A DNA stretch of 64,000 nt from Ignavibacteria bacterium (GTDB lineage Bacteria > Bacteroidota > Ignavibacteria > Tepidaquicellales > Tepidaquicellaceae), in the NCBI GenBank assembly GCA_019694675.1, contig JAIBBK010000041.1, positions 1 to 64,000 on the forward strand. The letters run 5' to 3'. Below are positions 10,486 to 64,000 of the stretch, piece by piece. Each line of letters begins with the position of its first letter. Positions within the stretch are counted from its first letter, which is position 1. The position numbers were made by a program, and so were the translations under genes. The notes beneath the pieces are model-generated. The model ran no database searches. It was not told the origin of the DNA and was given only the letters and a program-made list of their open reading frames with translations.

Positions 10486-13400
10486 TCAGATACCGTTTCC
10501 GTTAAGAGGAATGAATCTGATGACCGCCCTTGTTCCTTCCCCAAGCCGGCTCTCAAATGTGATCTCTGCTTTCATATCATCAAGGCTCTTCTTAGCGATC
10601 GCAAGCCCGAGCCCCATACCTGTTGACTTGGTCGAGAAATTTGGTTCGAACAGATTCTTCAGAGTCTGCGGATCGATTCCTGCACCCGTGTCGGCCACTT
10701 CCGCCATTATCCTGCCGTTACTGCTGTATGTCTTTACTTCAATCGTTCCGCGGTCTTCAATTGCCTGCATGGAATTTTTGATCAGATTCTGAAACACCCT
10801 GTTGAGTTCCTGCTTGTCTGCCCATATCATTCCTACAGCAGGGTCAAGCGATTTTACAAAGGAGATGTTCTTTGCCCGCTCATATAGAGAGACAACCTCC
10901 TCTATGATCTGATTGAGATCGGTCTCTTCGTACTTTCTTCCCGGAAGTTTTGCAAAATCCGAAAACTCCGTTGCAATCCTGTTCAGCTTATCAACTTCGT
11001 TAATAATTATGTCTTTGGTCTTTCGAAGAAGCTTTTCGAATTCCTCCCTGCTTCCCGATAAGTAGATTTCCTGAAGATGCTGTATGGAAAGTTTCATCGG
11101 AGTAAGAGGATTCTTTATCTCATGGGCCACTCTTCTTGCAATGTCTCTCCATGCGGCCTCGCGCTCAGCCCTCTTCAGCTGTTTCTTTGAATTCTCAAGC
11201 TCATGCGACATCTTGTTGAACGATTCAACAAGCTTGCCGAATTCGTCATTACTGTGGGGATCAATTTCCACATTGCTCTCGCCCTTGGCGATCTTCTCCG
11301 TTGCATTCTGCAGCATTTCTATCGGCCTGGAGATCCTTTCAGTCATGTATGTAACGAGTATCAGCAGAAGAATGATCACAATGAAGTAAGTTCCGAATAT
11401 GAATGTGAGAATTTCCGTCAGCTCTTCATTCATGAGGTTCTGCTTGTAAACCGTCTGAGAAGAGATAAGCCCGACTATATTGTTGCGTGAGTCGAAGAGC
11501 GGCCTGTATCCGACGATGAATGAATACGGGCCGAGGTCTTTGGTCTTCGAATAGAAATCCCTCTTCATCACATACACGTTGTAGAAAGCATCCGCGTCAA
11601 CACGCGTGTCGAGCAGGTCCGATTTGTACAGTTCTTCATCGGTTGTGGCCGCAAGGCGGTACTTCGAAAAGATGTTGAAGTTCTTATCTGACTGCTGTAT
11701 TGACTTTGCAAGAATGTTGCCGCCTTCCGTACCAAGGCTGTCGAATCTTCCGATCTCCGCCTGTCCGCTCTTTATGTTCTGAGATACGAGGCTTAGATCG
11801 GATATGAGCTGATCGCGGAAATTTATGTTGTACTTGTTCTCAATGAACGACCGAGTGTAAGCGGCAAGGAGAACGATCGGGATCACCGATACCAGCAGGA
11901 AAGAGGCAAAGAGTTTCTCGCGGAAATTGAACCGGAGATTTCTGAGTCTCGGGAGCATTACCAGCGCAATGACCGCCAGTGCTGTAAGGTAAACGGCAAC
12001 AGTGAAAAGGATGAACTTCAGGTAAAAGAACACTATAAGCTTCACGTCATTTCTCTTCAGGCTTATCGCAAACACCCTTTCGTCAAGCGTAAGTTCTTCC
12101 GGTGCGGCAATAATGTAAAACGTCCTGTACTTCTCGTTGTTGATCGTCTCATATCTCCATCCGGATCTTTCGGGCTTGTTCTTTATGGATTCCATGAATG
12201 CATTCAGGGAAGTTGTGTTCTCCTTTGAAATGTCCCTGTTTGTGGAGCCCGTGATCTCGCCGCCAACGTATTCCGTAATTACCGGAGTTGAGATCAGCTT
12301 GTCGAAGAGCTTGTCTCCCGAGTAGTTTCTGAAAAGCTGAGATGAGGACTGCATAAGATAGTTCTTGGAGTCATACTCCACCGCCATTACGATATATCCC
12401 AGCTTGGTTTCAAACGACGTGCTCCTCAGGCTGAGAATCTCAAGCGGCACAATTCCCGCGTAATATTTTCCAAGATCATTCTTGACCACCGTTATCTTGT
12501 CGGCTTCAATGAGATTGCCCGGTTCCTCTTCCTCAAACTCTTCTGATTCTTCATCCTCTTCTGCAAGAAGGGAATCAGACATTGCTGTTGAATCTCCTGT
12601 GATCCCGGTTATAGTTTTTGGTTTTCGGAAAACAGTCCTTTCAACAAAGGCAAGCACGGAGTCAGGCCTGATATTGGCAGGTCCGAACACGAAATCGCTC
12701 TTGCTCCTTCTGTTTGTGTCTGTTACGATCACTGCAGTATTGAAACTCTCCTCGCTGAAACTGCTTTCGCCCCATACGGAAAAGGCGAGTTCCTGCTGTT
12801 TGCTCTTTACGTTTAGGTCAGATTCGATCTTCTTGCTGTCAGCCAGTTTTGAAAGTTCCGTGATCAGCAGAAACTTGACCCTGTCGCTTTCGTCTTCTGC
12901 AAGCCTGTTTCCAATCAGCTCCACAAACCGGGTCTCCTGTGATGTAAGTTTATCAAGCAGGATCCCGGGCACAGAGATCAGGCAGAAGATAACCAGTATC
13001 GAGAGGTTCTTAAGAGAAATTGCATTATAGTCTTTTGAAAGGTAAAGCCTGTTGGAAAGATAGATTCCCATGGCACTGCTCAGAATGATGACAAGCAGTC
13101 TGTAGATCCCGTCGGGATCGGAGTCTTTGAGGATCGCCGCCAGCAGAAAGTTCATTCCGAGAATCAGAAGGAGGAGAAGCATGTAGCTGTACTTCCTGTA
13201 TCTGTAATTTGCCAGCACACTGTAGACAAGCTTCCTGTTGCAAATTATCACCAGTGAAATGAGAAACAGGAACATCGAAAACGCAATGAACAGCAGTGCC
13301 AGGTTCATTGTAAACAAGGATGGCCCGGGGATCACGCTTCCCTTGTCGAAGAACTGAAGGTTAGAGTCGTTCACAATGTTCTGAAAGATCGTTCCGAATG

Positions 13401-14622
13401 AGAACGCGGCGGCAAAATAAAGAACGAGCGCTCCTGCAACCTTGATTATTGATACCGGCTTGCTTTCCCTGGTTGTCAAGAGCGATGCATAACTTGAACC
13501 CTTCACAGTGATGAAGAATCCGTAAACAGCAACGGAGAGCAGAAAGAACGATGTGATGAACAGATCGCCGAGCGAACGTGCGATTCCGTTTCCGAAAGTG
13601 GATGCATAATCGCCCGGGCTGAATATCTCAAGCGGAATGAAGTCGGAAGGAAAGGAGAATCGTAACCAGACATACCGGATCGGGATGAGTATTGCTATGA
13701 ACAAAGCGAACCGTAAAAGCCTGCTTCTGATCCTTGATGATAAGCTGAAATAGAGGATCAGCACAAGCATCGTAATTGCAAAGACAATTCCGGAAATGAG
13801 TTTTGACTCAAGCGCCTCTATGTTCTGTACATGAACGATCTTGCTGTATTCACTCAGAAAAAGGTAAGCAATTACGCTGTTGTCCGTGCCCTTAAGCTCT
13901 GCTCTGATGCTTCCCGCCATGGAGAGGCTGTCATACACTATTCTCCCTGAGATCGGGTCAGCCGGTATGAGCACTGCATCTGAATGTGAATGGTTTTCTA
14001 TATTACCCATCAGGCCGGCTGTTCCGTAGAATGCCTTGCCGATCTGCTCCTTGACCTCAATCAACCTTGCGCACGCAATAACACCGGCCGGCTCATTCTT
14101 CTTTTCAGACATGACCGGCGTGTAGGAAATGAGATAAGTGAAGAAGCCAAGTTCTTTTATCACGGTAAATCTTCCTGACTTCACAGCTCTCTGCAGTGTG
14201 TAAATATCCGGATCAAGTTTGCGGCCGGAGAAAGCGAGGAGCTCCAGTTTGGAATTATAAACTTCTATCTGGTAAGAATTGTCGGCATTGGCAAGCATGA
14301 TCTCCTCGAAAAGCTTTCGAACGTCATTTCTTTCTATGCTCTTCTTTATACTTTCTCCCGATGCCAGTTCTCCCGCAAAGCTGACAAGCTCATTCTGCGT
14401 CTTTTCAAAGAGACTTATGCCGTACTCCTTGTTTGCGGCATTGGTCTCCCTGCTGATCGAGTCAAACTCCTTTATGGAGTTGTCTTTGACGTAGAGGGCC
14501 GAAAAGTGAACGGCAGCCGCCCATAAGAGGAGAACGGCAATGGATATAAGTATGACCTTGTTTGTCCTGTTTCCCTTCAGTTCGCCGGATGTATATGCAT
14601 TATTGGATTCCTGCAGAGGCAA
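10486..14622 (-). CDS. Giant NtrY-like sensor histidine kinase (1378 aa)
   Basis: TTG start. Visible order: membrane helix (about 22-45), extracytoplasmic sensor domain (about 45-270), a run of about eight membrane helices (about 270-570), a second extracytoplasmic region (about 570-870), two more helices, a Cache-like sensor region, a helix leading into HAMP (ERISRPIEMLQNATEKIAKGE), HisKA with RRVAHEIKNPLTPMK (phosphoacceptor His1167) and HATPase_c with N-box (about 1274-1287), DTGAGI (1311-1316) and GMGLGL (from 1335). The HEIKNPLTPMK form is that of NtrY-type kinases. Two or three sensor modules and a polytopic core make it about twice the size of NtrY. No response regulator is adjacent. 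It is coupled to the downstream Ig-like lipoprotein. Confidence 0.88.
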   Translation of the reverse strand: MPLQESNNAYTSGELKGNRTNKVILISIAVLLLWAAAVHFSALYVKDNSIKEFDSISRETNAANKEYGISLFEKTQNELVSFAGELASGESIKKSIERNDVRKLFEEIMLANADNSYQIEVYNSKLELLAFSGRKLDPDIYTLQRAVKSGRFTVIKELGFFTYLISYTPVMSEKKNEPAGVIACARLIEVKEQIGKAFYGTAGLMGNIENHSHSDAVLIPADPISGRIVYDSLSMAGSIRAELKGTDNSVIAYLFLSEYSKIVHVQNIEALESKLISGIVFAITMLVLILYFSLSSRIRSRLLRFALFIAILIPIRYVWLRFSFPSDFIPLEIFSPGDYASTFGNGIARSLGDLFITSFFLLSVAVYGFFITVKGSSYASLLTTRESKPVSIIKVAGALVLYFAAAFSFGTIFQNIVNDSNLQFFDKGSVIPGPSLFTMNLALLFIAFSMFLFLISLVIICNRKLVYSVLANYRYRKYSYMLLLLLILGMNFLLAAILKDSDPDGIYRLLVIILSSAMGIYLSNRLYLSKDYNAISLKNLSILVIFCLISVPGILLDKLTSQETRFVELIGNRLAEDESDRVKFLLITELSKLADSKKIESDLNVKSKQQELAFSVWGESSFSEESFNTAVIVTDTNRRSKSDFVFGPANIRPDSVLAFVERTVFRKPKTITGITGDSTAMSDSLLAEEDEESEEFEEEEPGNLIEADKITVVKNDLGKYYAGIVPLEILSLRSTSFETKLGYIVMAVEYDSKNYLMQSSSQLFRNYSGDKLFDKLISTPVITEYVGGEITGSTNRDISKENTTSLNAFMESIKNKPERSGWRYETINNEKYRTFYIIAAPEELTLDERVFAISLKRNDVKLIVFFYLKFILFTVAVYLTALAVIALVMLPRLRNLRFNFREKLFASFLLVSVIPIVLLAAYTRSFIENKYNINFRDQLISDLSLVSQNIKSGQAEIGRFDSLGTEGGNILAKSIQQSDKNFNIFSKYRLAATTDEELYKSDLLDTRVDADAFYNVYVMKRDFYSKTKDLGPYSFIVGYRPLFDSRNNIVGLISSQTVYKQNLMNEELTEILTFIFGTYFIVIILLLILVTYMTERISRPIEMLQNATEKIAKGESNVEIDPHSNDEFGKLVESFNKMSHELENSKKQLKRAEREAAWRDIARRVAHEIKNPLTPMKLSIQHLQEIYLSGSREEFEKLLRKTKDIIINEVDKLNRIATEFSDFAKLPGRKYEETDLNQIIEEVVSLYERAKNISFVKSLDPAVGMIWADKQELNRVFQNLIKNSMQAIEDRGTIEVKTYSSNGRIMAEVADTGAGIDPQTLKNLFEPNFSTKSTGMGLGLAIAKKSLDDMKAEITFESRLGEGTRAVIRFIPLNGNGI

Positions 14623-15401: not shown

Positions 15402-15475
15402 GCCGGGATAGCTCAGCTGGTTAGAGCGTCGGAATCATAATCCGTAGGTCGGGGGTTCAAGTCCCTCTCCCGGTA
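15402..15475 (+). tRNA. tRNA with CAT anticodon, probably elongator tRNA-Met
   Basis: The cloverleaf can be drawn by eye: acceptor GCCGGGA/TCCCGGT, D arm GCTC/GAGC, anticodon arm with loop ATCATAA (anticodon CAT at 15436-15438), and T arm GGGGG-TTCAAGT-CCCTC. A U-U pair caps the anticodon stem, the acceptor ends in a G-U pair, the discriminator is A and CCA is not encoded. The G-U rather than mismatched 1-72 pair argues against initiator tRNA. A CAT anticodon could also be tRNA-Ile2 (lysidine-modified), which cannot be excluded without a covariance model. A T-tailed hairpin follows at 15534. Confidence 0.93.
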
Positions 15476-59302: not shown

Positions 59303-60087
59303 CTCTGATCGTTCCTCTGAATCAGATAAGTTCTTTTGGTTCAGTTAAAGGGGAATGATCGCAGAAGCGGAAAAATAGTTACGGCACAGAACTTCTCACA
59401 CGGGAACACACTGAGAGTTTTGTGCCGTCTTTTTTAAGGAAGATCCTACTTAATTATTCTCAACTGTAACAGATCCTCCCGGGAGTAGCTCGAAAATTCA
59501 TTTCTGCTTATTTTGAAATGGCGTTGATGATAAATCCTCCAATACCATCAATCATTTTGGAGTATGAATTGATTTCTGCCTCAATGAATTTCTAAGGCAA
59601 TTGTCCGCCATCAGACAGAAGAACGGAGTAAACATCCTCAACATTTGAACTTGAAGTATTTAACTAATACGCTCCTGAGTGGAGCGCTTCTCAAACCTCC
59701 GTCAATCCCCGAACTGCGATGCAGAGTCTGCTTCTATACACTGTCTTTAGGAGTATTTCAGAAGACCAAAAGCATGGTTGTTGTGAAGTGACTTGTCTAC
59801 TCACGGAAATACCGGAAAACAGGATTCATCAGACTGTTAAGAAAGATTATTCTGTAGCGATCCTCAGCGGTACAATTTCATCTGATTTCCTTAGCGGCAA
59901 AGAGATCCGGTCCGGATCTCCGCATCATGAAAACAATACTTCTTTATTTATTTGTATGGGAGGTATCATTTCAGTATCGGCCTCATCATGTCATTTTGCA
60001 GGCATCAAAGATGAGCAATATACGGATGCGACTGAGCATGTATCACTGAGAACAGCAGACGAAACTTCAGCCTCTTGCCGGCCATCA
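59303..60087. other. Long non-coding gap between convergent T9SS genes
   Basis: No supported gene. It contains the terminator at 59381, a 6-bp hairpin cgctcc/ggagcg (59670-59686) and a 19-base near-perfect palindrome (59902-59920, arms gagatccgg/ccggatctc). A short reading frame near 59928 begins like an export signal but breaks quickly. An open frame from 59719 runs into the antisense of the BNR gene and is rejected. Confidence 0.45.
59381..59435 (+). terminator. Rho-independent terminator after the beta-helix gene
   Basis: acggcaca (59381-59388) pairs with tgtgccgt (59421-59428), with an inner ctca/tgag pair, followed by six T. It lies 79 bases after the stop. Confidence 0.8.
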
Positions 60088-61695
60088 CTATTTCACAAGG
60101 GCCATTTTCTTGGTGGCAAGCCTGTTTCCGTTTGCAGAAAGAGTGTAAAAGTAAGCTCCGCTCGGGAGATCGGCGGCATTGAACTCAGCTTCATACTCAC
60201 CGTACCCAAGATACTGATTGGCAAGCAGGGCTATCTCCTTTCCGGAAATGTCATACACAACGAGCCTAACCAGTGTACTGCCGTTTGCAGAAGGAACGCT
60301 GAACCGGATCCTTGTTGACGGGTTGAAAGGATTGGGATAATTCTGGCTCAGTTCAAATCCCGCAGGAGCAGAATTGCTGATCTGATTGATGCCGATCGTG
60401 TTCAGGTCAATCGGCGCAGTCCATACCTGATAAACGCCTGTAATATCATCCATCCAAACGGGCCAGAGTTTGTTGTTTCCGGAAGTTATTCCAATGTTGT
60501 CCCCCTGGTTTCCGGATCCTGCTCCGGCAATGCCCTTCGGCTTATATTTGTGGTCGCTCACAAGAAAGTCCCTCCAGGTTGATCCTCCATCGGTTGACCT
60601 GGAAAGATAGGTCTGCGCCGAATCGGGTGAATTTCTGTTATCAACATAAACAACATTGATCCCACCGTTCTCATCAACTCTCATAGCGGGAAAGATCTGA
60701 TTCCTTCCGTTATTGATTGGATCCTGATTCACCCTCACGCCCGCCGACCATGTACTGCCTCCGTCGGTTGACCTGTGGAATACAATGTCAGGATCAGTGC
60801 CGGCCGGAGCAAGATTCTTTTCCGCGGTAACAACATAAAGCCAGCCGTTCCTCTGTCCGCCGGTCCTGTCAATATCCATTGAGGGATATCCGTTGACCCT
60901 GATTCCCCAGGGAGAAAGCGATGAAGTTTTGATGCCGTTTGTCTGATACACGCTTTCATTCACAGACCAGTTCACTCCGCCGTTCGTTGATTTTGCAAAA
61001 CCGAGCGCAAGTTCATTGAAAGGAGATGAGAGGCTGGCAGAGGACCAGCTTGCGTAGCAAACTCCATCGGGCCCTATCACCATTACCGGCCCCAGCGACT
61101 GCCTGCCGGGAAGCGAATTGTTAACTGCCGCAAGCGGTGTCCAGTTTGCCCCTCCGTTTGTAGTATATGACATCGCCGCCGGAAACGGATTAGTGAATCT
61201 CGTCCATATCAGGTAAGTTCTTCCGTAGTAAGGGCTGTTGATCACATCATCCGTTGCAGGACTTCCCTTATCCTGATCGTCACCGGCGATCTGTATATTA
61301 CCTGACCAAGTTTGGCCGAAGTTTGTGGAATAATTGGCATACATTCCAAGAACAAAACCGCCCTGATGAGTAAGAATGAGCCTGCCGTCTTTGTCTATAA
61401 TCGGCCCGGGATCACCGCCGTGATTAGTTATCGGTTGTCCGAAAAGAGTGTCTGTTCCTTTCCATGTTGCTCCCCCGTCCGTAGTCAGATAAACTCCTTC
61501 GCTTCTGAAAGATAACCTGATTGTGTATGCGCTGGCAAACATTATGTTCGGATTAGCCGGATGCCTGACAATCGTTGGTTCGATTTGATTGCTTGTGGAA
61601 GGATACAATCTGAAGCTCGGAAATTGTGCAAAAGATTCTGTCTGCAAAATGCTTACAAAACATATAGAAAAAGCAAGGCGGCTCAGTGTATTCAT
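60088..61695 (-). CDS. Secreted BNR-repeat (sialidase-fold) protein with T9SS sorting domain
   Basis: 535 residues. The signal peptide ends near ESFAQ (about residue 24). Six Asp-box-like repeats (TTDGGATW, STNFGQTW, TTNGGANW, STNGGVNW and two copies of STDGGSTW) mark a six-bladed beta-propeller of the sialidase/BNR type. I do not see the Arg triad of true sialidases, so a lectin or structural role is as likely. The type A sorting domain starts at NYPNPFNPST (452) and ends KKMALVK. It is convergent with the beta-helix gene across a non-coding gap. Confidence 0.85.
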   Translation of the reverse strand: MNTLSRLAFSICFVSILQTESFAQFPSFRLYPSTSNQIEPTIVRHPANPNIMFASAYTIRLSFRSEGVYLTTDGGATWKGTDTLFGQPITNHGGDPGPIIDKDGRLILTHQGGFVLGMYANYSTNFGQTWSGNIQIAGDDQDKGSPATDDVINSPYYGRTYLIWTRFTNPFPAAMSYTTNGGANWTPLAAVNNSLPGRQSLGPVMVIGPDGVCYASWSSASLSSPFNELALGFAKSTNGGVNWSVNESVYQTNGIKTSSLSPWGIRVNGYPSMDIDRTGGQRNGWLYVVTAEKNLAPAGTDPDIVFHRSTDGGSTWSAGVRVNQDPINNGRNQIFPAMRVDENGGINVVYVDNRNSPDSAQTYLSRSTDGGSTWRDFLVSDHKYKPKGIAGAGSGNQGDNIGITSGNNKLWPVWMDDITGVYQVWTAPIDLNTIGINQISNSAPAGFELSQNYPNPFNPSTRIRFSVPSANGSTLVRLVVYDISGKEIALLANQYLGYGEYEAEFNAADLPSGAYFYTLSANGNRLATKKMALVK

Positions 61696-62042
61696 TGTTC
61701 AGTAGGTGATTTTTAGCAAGTTAGATTGTCGAATATAAATATCTGCAGGTTTCAAATTAAGTCAAACATGAAAAAATGATGATTTGCAACCCGGACATTC
61801 GATAAACAGAATGATGTGAATAAGGTTTCAGGATGGCACGAAATAAATATCAATCTGAGAACACTTGACCAGGAACTCTGCTACAGATCAAAAGCTGTTT
61901 CAGAATCCCGCATGCATCTGGCTCAATACACAGCCAAATCTGCAAACAGGTGTCAGGAGCAGGTTTTGTAACGAAAACAGTATAACGGAAAGGACCAAGA
62001 ATATCTGTTTCCAAATTCATCAGAGAAGACTATTTTGCAAAT

Positions 62043-62095
62043 GCCGCAGGAAATACAACACCCGCCAACCGTAACGAGGCTGTATTCCTGACGGC
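62043..62095 (+). repeat. Conserved-loop hairpin, copy 1
   Basis: The stem is 62043-62057 with 62081-62095: about 14 bp in gccg/c/agga/taca order with single-base bulges. The 23-base loop (62058-62080) contains cccgccaaccgtaacgaggc. Strand is arbitrary, since the same structure exists on both. Confidence 0.75.
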
Positions 62096-62229
62096 GAATA
62101 GCAATCTGCAGTCTGTCTCGGAGTTCTTTGATATGACATTACATATCATGCCGTATTTGGTACAGCAAATCGAACACCGGGTATTCCGACCCGGTCCGCT
62201 TGCAGATCATTTGGGTCCTCTGCAAAAGT

Positions 62230-62263
62230 ACACAGTTCCCGCCAACCGATAACGAGGCTGTGT
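62230..62263 (+). repeat. Conserved-loop hairpin, copy 2
   Basis: The stem acacag (62230-62235) pairs with ctgtgt (62258-62263). The 22-base loop (62236-62257) carries the same core as copy 1 with one extra A (cgataac versus cgtaac). The stem sequence differs from copies 1 and 3. An aaag/cttt pair outside may extend it. Confidence 0.75.
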
Positions 62264-62372
62264 CCGGTTCCTTTACACTGCGGATTGCTGATCAATCATA
62301 AGTATCCTGAATTCTCTTTTCGCACATGAATATTCAGGTACTGGATAATGCATAAGTTTCATGAACAATACA

Positions 62373-62452
62373 GCGCAGGGATCGCAAAGGATTGCAGTTC
62401 CCGCCAACCGATAACGAGGCTGTGTCCCTTGCGATTGCATCGCGGCCTGCGC
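62373..62452 (+). repeat. Conserved-loop hairpin, copy 3
   Basis: The loop core is identical to copy 2 across 33 bases (62395-62427 versus 62233-62265). It sits on a long interrupted stem: cag/ctg, then atcgcaaagg (62381-62390) with ccttgcgat (62427-62435), then gcgcagg (62373-62379) with cctgcgc (62446-62452). Confidence 0.75.
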
Positions 62453-62534
62453 AACATTCTTCAATCTTCAATTCACTCTTGATACGGATCTTCAGTCTTC
62501 CTGACAGTCGCCATTGCTTTTACCTCTTTTATTC

Positions 62535-64000
62535 TCATCTTCTTCTGAACATATATGCAATGTTTATGCCGCCGAAGAAATTAGATCTGGCTCCCGCTTC
62601 GTAGTACTCCTGCCTGTCGGAATTGATTTGTATGAAAGACACATACTTTTGATCCAGTATGTTGTTGACTCCCGCATAAGCAACGATCTGAAAATCACCC
62701 AGTTGGAAATTTCCGCCAATCTGAGCTCCCAATAATGAATAACTGTCTGTCTTTAAGCTGTCCACATTCTTGTCATTCACAAACATCGAGCTCACATAAT
62801 TGAAGTAGCCTTTGACGTATCCGGTTATGTCCTTTGTGAAATTGCCTGTATAAGACAATTCCGTGTTTATGTTATGATCCGGATTTGAAGGTTCCTTATT
62901 GCCGTCGTACTTTTCACTTGAAAGTACTCCGTTTGCATCAATGCTGACTGCGTCGTAAGTGTTATACACAAAATCGGAGTACGTATAAGAACCAAGCCAT
63001 TTCAAGCCTTTTACAACTTCTGTGTTGAAGCCGAATTCAACTCCGTTTCTTGTAACGCTTGCCGCATTTCGGAAGTACGGGTCGCCGTCAACCGTAAAGG
63101 GAACAATTGCATTGTCGATCTTCGTGTTGAAATAGGTCAATTCAAGGAATGTCTTAGTGAACAGGTTGCTCTTTCTGTTCGGAATTTCCCCTTTGTATCC
63201 GATTTCGAATGTGTTTGTTTCCTGTGCATTCAAGTCGGGATTTATCGTATGTAGGCCTCCGTCTGATGAGAACGGATAGTTGTCAAGCTCGTTTCCGGCA
63301 GGCGTATCAAATCCCCAACCATAAGAAGTGTAAAAGGCCATGAAGGGATTGATCTTGTAATTGAGAGCAAACTTAGGTGCGAACTTGTCAAAGAGCCTTG
63401 AAGTGTCCCTGAACTGAGCAAGCCTGTCTCTGAAGTTAAAACCAATCCTGTCGTATCTTCCCGTTATCATAAGATTCACTTTGTCGACAACAATCGGGAA
63501 ATTGTTCAGGAAATAAAAACCAAGATTGCTAATGACTTCATCATTAAGGGTTTGAAGCTGATCACCCTGTTGTCCTCCAACATTGTTGAATTCAGAGATC
63601 GGTCCGGATTGGTAAAATGCATCACCTCCGACAGAGAATTCGTTCGTCCTCTTACCGAACTTCGACTTGTTTATGTACCTGAATTGCCCGCCAATCCCGG
63701 ACCTGTTAAACAGCCTGTATGTGGCGGCTGTTCGGTTGAAGTTCTTTATAGTGCCATACACGATCATCTCCACACTGTTGTTCTTTTCTTTCCCAAAAGA
63801 AGCATTGTAAGTGACTGCCAGTCTTCCCTTTTCCGTAATTCTCTTGGAGTCCCGGCTGACGTCTCGCGGATTTGCCTTAAGGTCATCCTCATTGTATTGT
63901 TTCAAAGTCAATGATCCTGGCAATTTGATAATGCCGTTCACATAGTAACCGTAGATCGCGAGCTTTGAACTGTTGGTAACGTCAACTTCGTAAACAGAAT
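62535..64000 (-). CDS. TonB-dependent receptor, partial (C-terminal barrel)
   Basis: The frame stays open to the right edge of the window, so the signal, plug and N-terminal part lie outside; at least 488 residues are present. The visible part is a beta-barrel with alternating aromatic strands (FDKFAPKFALNYKINPFMAFYTSYGWGFDTPAGNE, with the typical PAGNELD loop) and a standard TonB-receptor C-terminus (FGGINIAYMFRRR). PDLNAQETNTFEIGYKG is typical of iron-siderophore or cobalamin-type receptors. The ligand is unknown. Confidence 0.88.
   Translation of the reverse strand, partial: SVYEVDVTNSSKLAIYGYYVNGIIKLPGSLTLKQYNEDDLKANPRDVSRDSKRITEKGRLAVTYNASFGKEKNNSVEMIVYGTIKNFNRTAATYRLFNRSGIGGQFRYINKSKFGKRTNEFSVGGDAFYQSGPISEFNNVGGQQGDQLQTLNDEVISNLGFYFLNNFPIVVDKVNLMITGRYDRIGFNFRDRLAQFRDTSRLFDKFAPKFALNYKINPFMAFYTSYGWGFDTPAGNELDNYPFSSDGGLHTINPDLNAQETNTFEIGYKGEIPNRKSNLFTKTFLELTYFNTKIDNAIVPFTVDGDPYFRNAASVTRNGVEFGFNTEVVKGLKWLGSYTYSDFVYNTYDAVSIDANGVLSSEKYDGNKEPSNPDHNINTELSYTGNFTKDITGYVKGYFNYVSSMFVNDKNVDSLKTDSYSLLGAQIGGNFQLGDFQIVAYAGVNNILDQKYVSFIQINSDRQEYYEAGARSNFFGGINIAYMFRRR

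Follow-up and report, generated by a model that had tools for sequence, protein, structure and literature searches.

CsrB/RsmZ-type protein-titrating RNAs carry repeated hairpin tips that offer the same sequence to a protein, as GGA loops to CsrA/RsmA. REP/RAYT palindromic elements are intergenic hairpins clustered in one spacer, and they occur as many dispersed copies. Of the large ornate RNAs, ROOL and GOLLD have their genes in phage and prophage genomes, in many cases close to tRNA islands (PMC12286853). We analyzed a 64,000-nucleotide stretch of an Ignavibacteria bacterium contig (the window) in which one hairpin core occurs three times within a single noncoding spacer of 839 bp (61696-62534, minus strand). 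The spacer runs from the stop of an upstream TonB-dependent receptor beta-barrel gene (62535-63998, minus strand, continuing past the window) to the start of a downstream gene (60088-61695, minus strand) whose product is a BNR-repeat protein bearing a sorting tail for type IX secretion. Within it, we propose a lineage-specific structured noncoding RNA of ~500 nt, encoded on the minus strand and containing a triplicated hairpin module. We give this model about an even chance.

The three cores lie on the minus strand at 62061-62080 (copy 1), 62238-62258 (copy 2), and 62400-62420 (copy 3), with start-to-start distances of 177 and then 162. Copies 2 and 3 share the core CCCGCCAACCGATAACGAGGC, while that of copy 1, CCCGCCAACCGTAACGAGGC, is one base shorter. 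Both the three repeated cores and the 33 bases identical between copy 2 (62233-62265) and copy 3 (62395-62427) had been described in an initial annotation of this DNA and were confirmed here; its coordinates were exact for copy 1 and one base off for copy 3 and for the end of copy 2. A 20-mer core with up to three mismatches is expected by chance 0.01 times per window. Across the genome (3.7 Mb), only these three sites, all in one spacer, matched well, and another contig contained a single isolated three-mismatch match. The cores do not appear to be derived from coding sequence, as their reading frames differ and only short stop-to-stop frames run through them.

The core had been interpreted as a constant loop. 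Its constancy held, but on the minus strand most of it becomes a constant stem, with CUCGUUA pairing to UGGCGGG through three G-U pairs per copy and leaving a predicted tip of UCGGU or CGGU. The three G-U pairs become A-C on the plus strand, so only the minus strand can form this inner stem. The minus strand of 61980-62480 had a folding energy of -174 kcal/mol vs a mean of -143 for dinucleotide shuffles (z -5.0), while the plus strand of the same stretch had a z of -2.6. The best 250-nt stretch of the element (z = -5.2) was below every one of 124 control stretches of 250 nt taken from both strands of the window (mean z -0.07, sd 1.19, minimum -2.86). By these predictions, the minus strand folds more strongly than the plus strand. 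Both adjacent genes are also encoded on the minus strand. The putative structured RNA, which folds 5 sd below dinucleotide shuffles, spans 61970-62470 on the minus strand with approximate ends.

The predicted structure consists of serial hairpins and a multibranch junction, with P >0.9 for most helices. Read along the minus strand, it begins with the copy 3 hairpin (62362-62463; GCGCAGG/CCTGCGC, ATCGCAAGGGA/TCCTTTGCGAT, CAG/CTG, and CTCGTTA/TGGCGGG), followed by a predicted hairpin AGTACCTGAAT/ATTCAGGATACT (62301-62342) and the 5' half of the junction-closing stem (62277-62289), which pairs with its 3' half at 62100-62112. Between these halves lie the copy 2 hairpin (62230-62263; ACACAG/CTGTGT and CTCGTTA/TGGCGGG) and the junction hairpins TTTGCAGA/TCTGCAAG (62199-62226), ACCGGGT/ACCCGGT (62176-62195), TGCTGTA/TACGGCA (62149-62167), and TGATATG/CATATCA (62129-62148). 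The copy 1 hairpin (62043-62095; GCCG/CGGC, CAGGAA/TTCCTG, TACAGC/GTTGTA, and CTCGTTA/TGGCGGG) completes the series. The three core hairpins persisted when the folded stretch was altered, and copy 2 paired at P of about 0.74-0.99 in the whole-element fold depending on that stretch. The junction stem was stable in 2/3 folded stretches and had a P of 0.21 with the full spacer folded.

Searches for homologues returned nothing above chance outside the genome itself. This was the outcome for spacer BLAST in 59 relatives and for a model of the hairpin in 44 genomes of the order, 391 of the class, and 395 of the phylum (partly overlapping sets); the relatives searched included no genome of the same genus. 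Exact patterns gave no match above chance in 296 genomes of the phylum, GTDB, or IMG/VR, and blastn against phages and plasmids found nothing. At gathering score, Rfam 15 identified only a tRNA in the window (15402-15475), and with E up to 10 there were weak sub-threshold matches only, none of which covered the hairpin cores. This agrees with the initial annotation, which recognized no known family. The copies with compensatory stem changes that it had suggested seeking in related genomes did not emerge, as the genomes searched contained no homologue. We regard the element as a real but one-of-a-kind candidate, with no second example found.

Individual matches from these searches were rejected. 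The GTDB pattern search gave 28 stretches vs about 30 expected by chance by our own estimate. One coding sequence common to several of the Bacteroidales matches was what we take to be methylmalonyl-CoA mutase. A Planctomycetota match (L011; JAPOKD010000421.1) had a longer stem and a second neighboring copy with a matched change. We rejected it because its assembly also contains a 92%-identical relative of the region, and this relative differs at about 5/20 core positions, more than its surroundings. That Planctomycetota spacer (L011 4760-5332 and G688:C700:2738-2979) contains a 21-base tandem hairpin repeat, present as two diverged versions in one assembly. The class-level model produced three matches of ~22 bits in 391 genomes, the number expected at that E-value; two of the three were inside coding genes and the third was L043. 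The six IMG/VR pattern matches comprised five in a single helicase-like viral gene and an unrelated one.

The order and orientation of the TonB receptor and BNR genes were kept in five relatives of four genera, with BNR proteins that were 66-70% identical. The spacer between the two genes was about 50-170 bp in these relatives vs 839 bp here, with the relatives' gap lengths read from open frames and blast coordinates, and blastn found no spacer sequence common to this genome and the relatives. Our genome therefore has about 650 to 800 extra bases, roughly 500 of which are in the putative RNA. Since the gene pair is conserved and the relatives' spacer is far shorter, the element sits in lineage-specific DNA that was gained or grown.

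Those 650-800 bp could be foreign, a non-autonomous mobile or repeat-derived insertion whose hairpins, folded in single-stranded DNA rather than RNA, were used by a transposase or recombinase. The difference in spacer length favors such an origin, as do Y1-type (IS200/RAYT-type) transposases at five places in the genome. We nevertheless consider it improbable, if worth keeping in view, because the genome contains no second copy, viral, phage, and plasmid collections had no homologue, the element is not flanked by convincing terminal inverted repeats, and the folding signal is minus-strand-specific, with G-U pairs involved. We also saw no recombinase gene adjoining the element, where the initial annotation had thought to look for one. 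Elsewhere in the genome, two fragments about 6 kb apart (G000:C27:7110-7322 and 13352-13564) matched the C-terminal part of tyrosine recombinases. Each had a TGA inside the matched frame, and the pair may derive from a recombinase element that decayed or was duplicated.

We found no clear promoter or terminator for the element. Just upstream of it, a 21-codon open frame (MRIKEVKAMATVRKTEDPYQE; 62473-62546, minus strand, approximate) has an ATG overlapping the TonB-receptor stop as ATGA and an internal GAGGT followed by ATG, making it a possible coupled small peptide. Downstream of the BNR gene is a second noncoding spacer of 785 bp (59303-60087) without the hairpin core. Several relatives had another open frame near the BNR gene in this position, and the downstream side of the gene pair seems to be rearranged too. 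A strong intrinsic-terminator-like hairpin (CGGCACAGAAC...GTTTTGTGCCGTCTTTTTT; 59373-59437, plus strand) follows a type IX secreted protein gene there and corresponds to a region with a plus-strand fold score of -5.5.

The stems beyond the core bear on whether the element is a functionless remnant of local duplication, in which the middle happens to stay similar and the stems are fortuitous. We held the core fixed and shuffled the 20-base flanks 1000 times on the minus strand. No shuffle (0/1000) equaled the stem of copy 1, a clear result, and 21/1000 equaled that of copy 3, which was moderate in beating about 98%. The 6-bp stem of copy 2 was no better than chance, with 207/1000 shuffles equally good (beating ~79%). 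Exchanging flanks between copies strongly weakened the pairing of copy 1 and weakened that of copy 3 in most combinations. The complementary but differing stems claimed in the initial annotation for every copy were thus upheld for copies 1 and 3, while the local stem of copy 2 was at chance. Over the three copies, 88% of cells paired vs 35-47% when the partner was slid one to three columns, a lenient comparison given that these same three sequences had supplied the structure. Changes on both sides occurred in 3/20 pairs, which 28-40/500 label shuffles also reached, so the claim of covarying stems reduces to a suggestive covariation that is only marginal among three sequences.

Duplication gains from the chance-level stem of copy 2, from relatives without anything similar, and from the weak similarity that copies 2 and 3 retain past the core in their right flanks (10/2000 shuffles, uncorrected). 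Against it, the core is nearly exact across copies while most flanks have no detectable similarity, so that the 33-base identical block adjoins mostly unalignable sequence. The stems of copies 1 and 3 likewise argue against a remnant, as does the folding of 500 nt at a z of -5, and we judge this explanation to be rather unlikely. An integron-type array, meaning an attC cluster without an integrase, would fit hairpins spaced 160-180 bp and separated by few genes, if any, and is one form of the recombination-type folded sites initially suggested, but it is refuted on its defining boxes and has next to no chance of being correct, as neither spacer strand contains an RYYYAAC...GTTRRRY pair, the constant part is at the hairpin tip and not the foot, and the integron-integrase model TIGR02249 found only sub-cut-off tyrosine recombinases in this genome (about 92% complete), as in 14/14 controls.

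The structured RNA that we favor would be encoded on the minus strand of the TonB-receptor/BNR spacer and transcribed together with the neighboring genes or from its own promoter. It is predicted to fold as a chain of hairpins plus a multibranch junction, in which three copies of the module ACAG-C-CUCGUUA-(U)CGGU-UGGCGGG-(AA)-CUGU sit on otherwise unrelated stems. With the stems drifting around an unchanged tip, the tip is most likely what is read by a protein or RNA partner, probably a protein. The RNA could then function in transcript processing or, through its three sites, as a scaffold or titrator. A structured RNA from the minus strand would explain why folding is strand-specific, why the element shares its strand with the neighboring genes, and why the tip is constant on stems that drift. 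A structure-recognized RNA, one of the initial suggestions, is accordingly the best-supported reading of the locus, though with marginal covariation and no homologues carrying compensatory changes. More tentatively, the element may belong to a new class of large, structured RNAs in bacteria, having entered or arisen in one spacer of this lineage, with a hairpin module used three times and a tip read by a partner. Provided that it is transcribed, the element would offer a large orphan RNA whose internal repeat lets structure and binding be examined in a single molecule, with no need for homologues. If it is not transcribed, it would illustrate how a sequence present three times in an expanded spacer can mimic covariation.

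Each of the known systems shares some features with this locus. Integron attC sites resemble it as imperfect hairpins recognized by shape in short tandem series, and are distinguished by R''/R' boxes that the element lacks, by its constant part being at the tip, and by the genome having no integrase over the cut-off. REP/RAYT elements are likewise clustered intergenic hairpins, and Y1 transposases are present at the five genomic places noted above, none linked to the element; unlike dispersed REP copies, its three copies are in one place only. CsrB/RsmZ-type RNAs also have repeated hairpin tips with the same sequence, but the element has only three sites, 162-177 nt apart, and a predicted UCGGU or CGGU tip in place of a GGA loop. 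The large ornate RNAs (GOLLD, ROOL, and OLE) have sporadic occurrence, unknown function, and hundreds of nucleotides with many hairpins and a multibranch junction, as predicted for the element. In contrast to these families, the element had no Rfam match to any family model, it adjoins a chromosomal TonB/BNR gene pair rather than the phage and prophage settings of ROOL and GOLLD, and it uses one hairpin three times.
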